Source of the DNA: Wuchereria bancrofti
Taxonomy: Eukaryota; Nematoda; Chromadorea; Rhabditida; Onchocercidae
DNA length: 64,000 nucleotides
NCBI GenBank assembly: GCA_005281725.1
Contig: SSBO01000009.1
Location: 2,644,969-2,708,968 of the forward strand
Direction of reading: 5' to 3'
In this document: piece by piece, positions 9,524 to 33,384 of the stretch
Position numbering within the stretch: the first letter of the stretch is position 1
Layout: every line of letters starts with the position of its first letter
The notes under the pieces: model-generated
What the model saw: only the letters and a program-made list of their open reading frames with translations
What the model was told of the DNA's origin: nothing
Databases searched by the model: none
Made by a program: the position numbers and the translations under genes

Positions 9524-9595
9524 AGGTCCCGGGGAGATTTGAACTCCCGTCGCAGGATTCAAAGTCCTGAGTGCTAACCACTACACCACGGGACC
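9524..9595 (-). tRNA. tRNA-Gln (anticodon TTG)
   Basis: The minus strand folds into an intact 72-nt cloverleaf. The acceptor arms GGTCCCG and CGGGACC pair fully, with discriminator T. The D region is GTGTAGTGGTTAGCAC, the anticodon stem CAGGA/TCCTG encloses loop CTTTGAA (anticodon TTG, reading CAA), and the T arm GGGAG-TTCAAAT-CTCCC contains a good B box. There is no intron. Unusually, no T-run terminator follows at once; the first TTTT is roughly 30 nt downstream on the minus strand, inside the GC-rich neighbouring segment. Confidence 0.93.
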
Positions 9596-26760: not shown

Positions 26761-29311
26761 ATGGATAGTGAGGAGGAGGAAGATTTCGGTCTTAAACCAG
26801 TTAGCAAATTTATTTTTGTAGTTTTTTTTTCTTTTTTATTTGATAACTTGTAAAAAAAAAAAGAAATCATTTTGAAATCTGGAAAAAAAAGAAATTTCAT
26901 TTCTTTATTTAGGGTTCGGTGATTGAATCATCTCATGCAAAGTATACAATTGATAAATTACTTGGTGAAGGTGGTTTTGGAGCCGTATACCGGGTCCATG
27001 ATTCCAATAATCCGACTATGGAGTATGCGTTGAAAGTAGAACGAAAACTTGAAACACGTAAAGATTCCAAACTCAAAATGGAGGTAAAATTATCCGGTTA
27101 ATGATGTCTGATCCGGTTAATGAATGATATCTACTTTCTTTGTACAACATCCGGTTAATGAATGATATCTACTTTCTTTGTACAACATCCGGTTAATGAA
27201 TGATATCTACTTTCTTTGTACAACATCCGGTTAATGAATGATATCTACTTTCTTTGTACAACATCCGGTTAATGAATGATATCTACTTTCTTTGTACAAC
27301 ATCCGGTTAATGAATGATATCTACTTTCTTTGTACAACATCCGGTTAATGAATGATATCTGCCTTTCATCATATTTTAAAATGATATGTCAGTTTTGTTA
27401 TGATATTTCTAAATGGCATCAGTAATTCTTTTTTTTAAACTTTTTTAAATTCGATATTTGTATGATCTAAGTTTACATTTTTGCTATAGCTATTGATAAT
27501 TGTTAACAATTTAAAACATACAAAGTATGCTTCTCTTTTTCTAGATCGCTATTTTGAAATTAGTCTCAATGGAACGAGCGGAGAAATCGCATTTTACAAA
27601 AATTATTGATCGAGGCAAGAAGGAGAAATTTTTTTTTCTTGTTATGCAACTCGTTGGAAAATCACTTGCCGATCTTAAAGCTTTACGACCGCATAAGGTA
27701 AATATTGTTATTTGAAGTTAAAAATGATTATTTCTATGTAAATAAGAGCTAGTATGTTATTTGTATGATTCAGTAATTAAATAGTAGGCCTAAATAATTA
27801 AGTAATTAAGTTAATAATTAAGTAGTTTAATCATAACATCTATCACTATTCACATAATAAATAAGCACGGTCACAATAAAAGAACATTTATTTGGTATCA
27901 TATCATGACATTATTTATTTCATAAAATTAATTATAAGCAAAAAATAAATTAAGAAAAATAAAGAAAATAAGAAATTCTGCCAGTTTAAAATTAATTAAT
28001 TGAACTTCCAATAAATAACTATAAACATTTGAGAATGACTGTATTACTAGAATTAATGAAAATTAAAATTGGAAATGAAATGAAATTATATCATAGGTAT
28101 TCTCAATGCATACTGGTTTGGGCGCATCGATACAATGTCTTGAAGCAGTGGAAGATTTACATAAACATGGTTTTATTCATCGAGATTTAAAACCAGCTAA
28201 TTATGCAACCGGTCTTGGAGCTCAAATACGATGCGTTAGTTTATTTTACATTTTTAAATTATTGTCAAATATTAGCTAAAATACATATGTAATTAATTTA
28301 ATGTAAAATAATTTTTTGAATTTAATTTGTAAAAAGAAGAGAAAATTTTACTAGTAATTTATTAATATAAAATTTCAGATTTATATTCTTGATTTTGGTA
28401 TAGCACGACGAATTCTCAACGATAAAGGTGAAATTAAGACACCTCGTGTAACAGTTGGTTTCAAGGGTACCGTAAAATTTGCACCTATAGCATGCCATAA
28501 ACGAAAAGAATTAGGCCCAAAAGATGATTGTGAATCATGGTTTTATCTTCTTCTCGATCTTCTTGTTGTAACAGGTATCAGGCTAATTATTTCAGTATTT
28601 CATGATAGGTAACAGGCTAATTATTTCAATATTTCATGATAGGTATCAGGCTAATTATTTCAATATGTATATTTCTTTATATAAAAAACTTTCTAATATT
28701 TGCCATTTCCGCTTATTTACTATTTTATAACTACTCCACTTCTTCAATAGCAAATTTTTTTGAGAAATTCAAGAAAAAAAATTGATTTAAGGTTTACCAT
28801 GGAGGAAAATATCGGATAAGAATGAAGTAATGAGGATGAAAGAAGAAAGTCGGATGAATCGAGACAAACTGTTGTATGGAATGAAATGCAAGGAAGAATT
28901 TGGCAAAATTTTAGAATACATTGATTCGTTACATTATGAAGACCGCGTTGATTATTCGTATATATATGAATTATTGAAAACGGTACCTTTCTTTTTTTTT
29001 TTCTTTTAATTGATATTATTATTTTTATTTTTTAATAAAAATCAAGTTTTACTCTATTTCTTCAAATGAATTAATTTAAGCATTAAACATACAGTTGATC
29101 TAAATATAATATCATTATTTGTTGCGATTCAGAAATTTGCAAAAATTAATTGAATAATTTTAGTAAGATGAAAGAGAATTATTGCATATAATATGTTAAT
29201 CTATGATCTTCTATGAATTTATTGATCTTCTATTAATTTCAGTCATCAGTAATTTGTGATTGCAAATTGACCGATCCATACGACTGGGAAGAAACAGCAC
29301 GAAAGAAATAA
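26761..29311 (+). CDS. TTBK/CK1-superfamily protein kinase, 7 exons, 318 aa
   Basis: Exons: 26761-26799, 26913-27083, 27545-27697, 28097-28234, 28379-28574, 28792-28982, 29243-29311; all phases agree. The start MDSEEEEDFGLKP joins GSVIESS, typical of worm TTBK-like kinases. Kinase motifs: glycine loop GEGGFGAVY (31-39), catalytic Lys in ALKVE (K54), HRDLKPAN (D151, N156), DFGIAR (D172), and CK1/TTBK-type features GTVKFAPIACHKRKELGPKDD and SWFYLLLDLL with GLPWR. No APE motif is present, as usual for CK1 relatives. All catalytic residues are intact, so it should be an active Ser/Thr kinase. The protein is a bare catalytic domain with a short tail. This family is greatly expanded in nematodes and often male-germline expressed; here it lies beside two MSP-domain genes. 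Introns 2 and 5 carry tandem repeats. Confidence 0.93.
27111..27360. repeat. 38-bp minisatellite in kinase intron 2
   Basis: Six complete, essentially identical 38-bp units start at 27111 and repeat every 38 bases to 27338, followed by a partial unit to 27360. Each begins ATCCGGTTAATGAATGATAT. A truncated related copy (TATCCGGTTAATGATG) sits at about 27091, only a few bases inside the intron. The near-identity indicates recent expansion. Confidence 0.95.
28574..28665. repeat. 34-bp tandem repeat starting on an exon/intron border
   Basis: Copies begin at 28574, 28608 and 28642 (GGTATCAGGCTAATTATTTC or GGTAACAGG...). The first base is the last base of kinase exon 5, so each copy recreates a G|GT donor-like sequence and also carries a TATTTCAG/TATTTCAA acceptor-like stretch. 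Confidence 0.85.
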
Positions 29312-32860: not shown

Positions 32861-32865
32861 ATACT

Positions 32866-33379
32866 TGTCGCTAAAGATGAACAACAAAGGTGATAAAATT
32901 ACAGTGATATGTACAAGGTTGTAAAATTAAGAATGTGTAGCTAAAGACTAACAATTCATGTTAACACTTTCTTTGTTTTAAATTAAATCTCCTTATACAT
33001 TTACATTACTGTATTAACTGACTTTTAATCTTCTTTGTTAAATTAAATATCAATCCTTTGTATTGTAAATTAAATCCCTTCTACAATATACACTATTGTC
33101 TAAAACGACTTTTAATCTTCTTGTTCCCCAAATCATCCAGTAACCCCTCTTTACTTCCTTACTAAATCATTATTATAGTTTTTCTTTCTTATATGGTGTG
33201 GTTGGATCAAGGGTTCTAAAACGCTTTAGCTTTATCCGCTTATGTTATAATGTTAATTTATACTAAAGAGTTGTATCTTCAAGTGATTTATATTAATTTT
33301 TGTGTTTTAAAATTTGTGGTTTTATTACCCAAGTTTGAGGTAATTAACAATAAAGGATCAAATTCAAAATTTCGCGACA
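32866..33379 (+). mobile_element. Solo LTR, 514 bp, carrying an SL1-like sequence
   Basis: The element starts TGTCGCTAAAG and ends TTTCGCGACA, so its termini TGTCGC/GCGACA are perfect inverted repeats. It is flanked by the 5-bp direct repeat ATACT at 32861-32865 and 33380-33384. In plus orientation a TATA-like TATATTA (33289) is followed 29 bp later by an SL1-like 22-mer (33318-33339), then GTAA, and an AATAAA at 33349-33354, 25 bp before the element's end. An imperfect direct repeat with an 88-bp period lies at about 32979-33125 (two copies of GACTTTTAATCTTCT). No internal region or partner LTR is present. It shares TGTCGC with the LTR at 10636 but differs in body sequence. Confidence 0.85.
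33318..33339 (+). other. SL1 spliced-leader-like 22-mer followed by a 5' splice site
   Basis: The 22 bases match the conserved nematode SL1 leader at 21 positions; the one difference is T for A at position 6. They start GGTTTTATTACC and end AAGTTTGAG. They are followed at once by GTAA, as SL1 is in SL RNA genes, but the sequence after that does not resemble the rest of SL1 RNA, and no clear Sm site or 3' stem-loop is seen. By chance such a match is not expected in 64 kb. See the findings for interpretation. Confidence 0.8.
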
Positions 33380-33384
33380 ATACT

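Follow-up and report, generated by a model that had tools for sequence, protein, structure and literature searches.

SL1 spliced-leader sequences inside the LTRs of BEL/Pao-type elements in Wuchereria bancrofti

The worm Wuchereria bancrofti puts a 22-base sequence, the spliced leader SL1, on most of its own messages. In an animal that replaces most of its mRNA 5' ends, an LTR element risks the loss of its 5' repeat. The repeat R is what retroviral minus-strand DNA anneals through, either within one RNA or between two (PMC3187697), and in HIV-1 the exact 5' G matters for the minus-strand annealing step (PMC4668388).

The closest described system comes from Brugia malayi, in which BEL/Pao was the only LTR class found by one survey (PMC3118150). 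Foster et al. (2020, PMC7181701) reported 316 SL1 places in this species, 196 of them close to the 22 nt of the SL1 RNA gene and 120 integral; 60 of the 120 integral copies lie within 1 kb of PAO, sometimes at both sides and on the same strand. Here we describe how an SL1 sequence of W. bancrofti compares.

An SL1 copy in a solo LTR

The stretch of DNA analysed, 64,000 nucleotides in length and called the window throughout, contains a solo LTR of a lineage that we name A (Table 1). Within it, GGTTTTATTACCCAAGTTTGAG matches SL1 at 21 of 22 positions, with T instead of A at position 6, and GTAATT stands directly 3' of it. No other SL1 match with up to three mismatches occurs anywhere in the window, and a shuffled control gave none in 100 shuffles. 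This re-reading agrees with a preliminary description of the same DNA, which had reported the match, the GTAA behind it, the TGTCGC/GCGACA ends and a 5-bp duplication. The same description had drawn attention to a TATATTA 29 bp before SL1. The motif does begin at this distance, but it is found in just 5 of the 10 aligned copies of the LTR. The spacing between TATA and SL1 varies among LTR copies and representatives, and a TATA at a fixed distance from SL1 was rejected for that reason. The T at position 6 is confined to one copy among those aligned and reads as private decay, so that the LTR family would not be expected to yield T6-leader messages.

Table 1. Features of the window (window positions) and LTRs with 5-bp target duplications, by lineage
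Feature	Position or length	Strand	LTR length 3' of SL1	Remarks
ATACT, left copy of 5-bp target duplication	32861–32865	.
Solo LTR, lineage A, TGTCGC...GCGACA	32866–33379 (514 bp)	+		U3 part at 16 places, 12 reach its end
U3, putative border with R	32866–33317	+		border from positions of SL1 and poly(A) signal
TATATTA	33289–33295	+
SL1 sequence, probable start of R	33318–33339	+
LTR tail (remaining R + U5), starts GTAATT	33340–33379 (40 bp)	+
AATAAA, likely poly(A) signal	33349–33354	+
ATACT, right copy of target duplication	33380–33384	.
tRNA-Gln gene (anticodon TTG)	9524–9595	-
Tandem array of a 38-bp unit	27073–27414
LTR, A	514 and 503 bp		40 bp	found by script
LTR, B, TGTCGCC...TTTTTACA (GCA in L009)			about 189 bp	ends and duplications read by eye: GAAAT (L021), ATGTG (L027), AAGGT (L009)
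LTR, C1	835 and 826 bp		160–167 bp	found by script
LTR, C2	431–454 bp		64–66 bp	found by script
LTR, C3	393 bp		11 bp	found by script
LTR, Cd (double-SL1 type)	544 bp		94 bp	found by script
LTR, D	439 and 458 bp		43 bp (D3), 11 bp (D5)	found by script
LTR, E	731 and 721 bp		418–419 bp	found by script; AAAAC, GTCAT, each one of several candidates

SL1 across the genome and its LTR lineages

The genome searched (86.5 Mb, 108 contigs) holds 330 places with at most one mismatch to SL1 (A or T at position 6), and none for the reversed pattern. A search of viral contigs gave no SL1 match. Sorted by the next bases, exact SL1 is followed by GTG at 83 places, by GTT at 94, by GTA at 24 and by A, C or T at 28, a total of 229 that leaves out exact SL1 followed by GA, GC, GG, GTN or an unread base. 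GT comes next at 201 of these, four SL1 RNA genes included. Those four genes (L071–L074) and 20 LTR-type places make up the GTA class; since all SL1 RNA genes seen here read GTA after the leader, the non-GTA classes are not SL1 RNA genes of that kind. Thus SL1 RNA genes are just four among the 229 listed exact places, and the contexts inspected are mainly LTRs of several BEL/Pao-type lineages. In a scan that covered L071–L073, 5S rRNA genes were seen near L072 and L073, and none in the stretch scanned around L071.

Lineages A to E were named by the sequence upstream of SL1 and sorted by eye from 78 distinct contexts with at most three mismatches to SL1; only three SL1 RNA genes and a match probably due to chance fell outside. 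Examples of A, B, C1, C2, C3, Cd, D and E have LTRs that end in TG...CA and are flanked by a 5-bp duplication of the target, although our end-finding script gave no ends or false ends at many other loci. SL1 lies close to the 3' end of the LTR in A, C2, C3 and D, but not in B, C1 and E. On contig C1 a C3 element is complete, with 398-bp LTRs that are 99.5% identical and GTTAC at either side. Both LTRs contain exact SL1, and the DNA between them matches Pao A17 in two pieces. For lineage A the link to A17 is a fragment at a contig end (C60), which is a hint. Judged by structure, the elements would be BEL/Pao-type LTR retrotransposons that transpose by reverse transcription.

Does SL1 accompany these elements, or do the searches merely find it because they began with it? 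We searched with U3 only, so that copies were not chosen via SL1. For lineage A, all 12 of 16 matches that reach the end of U3 are followed by SL1 (7 exact, 5 with one edit), and for lineage B the same holds for 41 of 41 best-scoring copies (37 directly adjacent and exact, 1 exact but offset by a single G, 3 with one or two edits). For lineage C, 40 of 41 matches reach the end, and SL1 is next in 39 of these 40 best-scoring copies: 33 are exact and adjacent, 1 further copy is exact and 5 have one or two substitutions, while the remaining one holds the first 12 bases of SL1 and then N. Candidates scored were 14 of 14 for A, the best 40 of 85 for B and the best 40 of 159 for C. Overall, SL1 follows U3 in 92 of 93 U3-found copies, those of B and C being best matches. 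A check that the preliminary description had proposed, whether other copies of the LTR carry the 22-mer, is thereby answered in the affirmative. In several BEL/Pao-type lineages SL1 occupies a single, constant border within the LTR.

Two B-type LTRs deserve separate mention. In L095 (C12:1411717-1412040), a single case, U3 and SL1 are separated by an additional G, a mark that an RNA with one surplus G at its 5' end could leave. In L104 (C8:560440-560780) SL1 is followed by an additional TTTGAG and then by GTTTGAATAATAAAG. This pattern would result if SL1 were trans-spliced onto the AAG within the SL1 that the LTR already has, and slippage duplication of six bases would explain it equally well.

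The coding neighbours were approached from the A17 side. Among the 36 strongest A17 places, half lie within 9 kb of an exact SL1 copy of the same orientation, and the remaining 18 lack one; under uniform density 0.024 would be expected per place and strand. Exact SL1 on the opposite strand accompanies 6 of the 36. SL1 flanks A17 at both sides, on the same strand and within 5 kb, at 4 of the 36 strongest and 6 of the 80 typed places. Seen from SL1, only 36 of the 229 exact places lie near any of the 80 typed A17 places, which implies that most SL1 copies reside in solo or broken LTRs or beside untyped places. The 2-kb 3' flanks of five Pao elements, whose LTRs were not located, contain no SL1 with up to six edits.

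Poly(A) signals lie near SL1 more often than in shuffled flanks: 9 of 13 representatives, which are partly related to one another, have one up to 12 nt before or up to 20 nt after SL1, compared with 5.65% of shuffled flanks. The signal begins 5–10 bases 3' of SL1 in A, B, D1, D3 and D4; D2, D5, E1 and Cd2 have none near it.

Partners switch across SL1. The 40-bp tail of A recurs behind a C-type U3 (Csw, Cd), and GTGCGGAAAAACAATC stands after both U3 C and U3 E. The order in C1 and in Csw/Cd is an E-like or A-like LTR start, a C-type U3 starting at its first base, SL1, and E- or A-type sequence. Such composite LTRs (L062, L065, L076 and relatives) place a C-type U3 within an LTR of E-like or A-like type and join it to the tail of that LTR at SL1; they look like nested insertions, after which the DNA between two SL1 copies was lost. 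We have for this reason softened an interpretation of the partner switches as proof of first-strand transfer. From their arrangement SL1 appears to act as a recombination joint; the composites do not prove strand transfer.

Conservation and possible roles of SL1

Pieces around SL1 were aligned for A (10 copies), B (13), C (28) and D (10). A variant counted as shared if two or more copies had it; columns whose variants were all private formed a separate class, and Fisher tests were applied. Shared variants occupy 2 of 88 columns in SL1 against 61 of 350 in the flanks (p=6.4e-5), while private-only columns number 16 of 88 and 60 of 350 (p=0.87). Much of the contrast comes from lineage D, in which every copy was found via an SL1 search; without D the shared-variant columns are 1 of 66 and 29 of 300 (p=0.025), and single lineages are not significant (A p=0.21, B p=0.60, C p=0.17). 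Recruitment of many copies by SL1 searches, foremost those of D, lowers the variation in SL1, and some aligned copies are possibly local duplicates. Ranked by raw divergence, SL1 comes 26th of 107 alignment windows in A, 28th of 72 in B, 10th of 72 in C and 3rd of 72 in D.

Lineage-level changes are rarer in SL1 than in its flanks. Shared variants arise in moving lineages and private ones mostly after insertion, which suggests that SL1 is constrained while the element is mobile and neutral later. SL1 thus seems to be conserved during element movement and to decay once inserted, and is apparently kept by selection in the LTRs. Two inherited variants, G22A in two D copies (L009, L080) and G2A in three C copies of one region (L100–L102), indicate that exact SL1 is not indispensable.

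What could a host leader do at this position? Our tentative preference, held at somewhat less than even confidence, is that SL1 forms the start of R and gives the element RNA both a host-like 5' leader and a repeat for strand transfer. Element RNA would initiate at the first G of SL1, so that its 5' end is SL1 itself, and its 3' end would be made just beyond the second SL1, placing SL1 at both ends. The 5' end of such an RNA would resemble that of a host message after trans-splicing, while SL1 would supply the repeat for the first strand transfer of reverse transcription. SL1 probably entered the LTRs by capture of the leader from a trans-spliced RNA, in one or a few events, after which selection would have maintained it. 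Messenger 3' ends are generally formed 10–30 bases beyond the poly(A) signal. In the C3 LTR, AATAAA ends immediately 5' of SL1 and 11 bp remain behind it; R would therefore overlap SL1 and these 11 bp, or start upstream and run through the signal, and the spacing leaves little room for any R but SL1. R need not end near SL1, since the LTR continues 160–419 bp past it in B, C1 and E.

Host trans-splicing adds the identical 22 bases, so a trans-spliced element RNA could still perform the first strand transfer. In a further variant the host spliced leader is itself the R repeat: trans-spliced element RNAs would gain their 5' repeat from host splicing, which would supply, and may refresh, a replication signal. 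We rate this as rather unlikely. Initiation is preferred over trans-splicing because inherited SL1 variants exist and no acceptor common to the LTRs was seen; strict renewal by trans-splicing in each cycle is weakened by G22A and G2A.

The published view, inferred in PMC7181701 as far as that account is drawn on here, is that Pao RNAs received SL1 by trans-splicing and carried it along on integration, without a role for it. The likeness to SL1 RNA genes is limited to the 22 leader bases, as such passive capture would have it, and the B copies are young, so that little divergence is expected regardless. Against it speak the shared variants, which are scarcer in SL1 than in the flanks when private ones are not, and the regularity with which SL1 follows U3, and we find a purely passive SL1 doubtful. 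Compatible with SL1 as the start of R is a function as a core promoter (initiator) element, where the DNA site would matter and not the RNA. In Ascaris the SL RNA gene is said to use its SL1 sequence as a promoter element, and SL1 is both conserved and fixed at the putative start site here; the upstream flanks, however, are unlike those of SL1 RNA genes, and we regard this role as unlikely.

The GT that so often follows exact SL1 raises the further idea of a built-in first exon with its own 5' splice site, which would be cis-spliced to acceptors of the element or of downstream genes and yield pseudo-trans-spliced messages. A parallel exists in Echinococcus, where an LTR-started transcript is cis-spliced to an ancestral trans-splice acceptor (PMC4558846). 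But GT is absent after SL1 in D1–D4 and E2, and the bases behind GT vary (GTAATT, GTTTGA, GTGCGG, GTGTCT, GTTTCA), which makes this use distinctly improbable. The preliminary description had also proposed that the LTR RNA passes SL1 to other messages in the manner of SL RNA. The window copy invites the thought, as its GTAATT is the same as in SL1 RNA genes. Nevertheless, the Rfam SL1 model (RF00198, cut-off 75 bits) scores 111.9–123.1 bits on three true genes (L071–L073) and 26.4 bits (E 0.5) on the window LTR. Sm-like matches occur in 3 of 13 representatives, each beyond the LTR end and none inside, whereas the SL1 RNA gene has such a site at +50. The 60 bp upstream and the 40 bp downstream of SL1 do not clearly resemble the SL1 RNA gene (z at most 2.6 and 2.4, respectively). 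Together with the missing GT in D1–D4 and E2, these results speak against leader donation, which we reject as hardly credible. The downstream z values of at most 2.4 also led us to reject capture of SL RNA together with the start of its intron. Two other suggestions of the preliminary description fared better: capture of SL1 from a trans-spliced RNA and mimicry of a trans-spliced 5' end would both predict a likeness to SL1 RNA genes that is limited to 22 bases, as found.

If SL1 does start R, a leader inside the LTR would be a simple escape from the loss of the 5' repeat, and a new dependence between mobile elements and splicing. Element RNAs may then begin and end with a sequence that the host adds to most of its messages. 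Caution is also advised, as read selection by leader and gene annotation may mistake retrotransposon ends for trans-spliced genes.

Relation to known systems

The nematode SL1 RNA gene (Rfam RF00198) and the window LTR share 22 bases; the LTR is without the SL RNA-like downstream part, an internal Sm site and a 5S neighbour. Like the BEL/Pao elements Tas and Pao (PMC3118150), the elements described here have an A17 peptidase, LTRs in the range of 0.2–1.2 kb and 5-bp duplications. They differ by the host spliced leader inside the LTR, which is absent from that description in the portion consulted. Some messages of Cer1, an LTR element of the nematode Caenorhabditis elegans, likewise carry SL1, but there SL1 is added by trans-splicing and the element is of the Ty3/gypsy class; its 8-kb RNA is not trans-spliced, which is one way of keeping R (PMC3315495). 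In Echinococcus, transcripts started in ta-TRIM solo LTRs also meet host trans-splicing acceptors, although a spliced leader inside the LTR is not described in the parts of PMC4558846 used here.

The SL1-PAO sequences of B. malayi (PMC7181701) are very likely the same elements as those of W. bancrofti. The proportion of SL1 RNA genes differs, with 196 close matches among 316 places there and 4 of 229 exact places here, which collapsed arrays or another definition may explain. In the open-licence literature, as far as its excerpts extend, we found no account of SL1 inside LTRs or as R. The sections of PMC7181701 drawn on here describe the leaders as flanking and co-integrated; they do not place them inside LTRs at a fixed border and contain no conservation test. 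Measured against that account, the association of SL1 with Pao as co-integrated leaders was already known, and what is new is the position within the LTR and its conservation.
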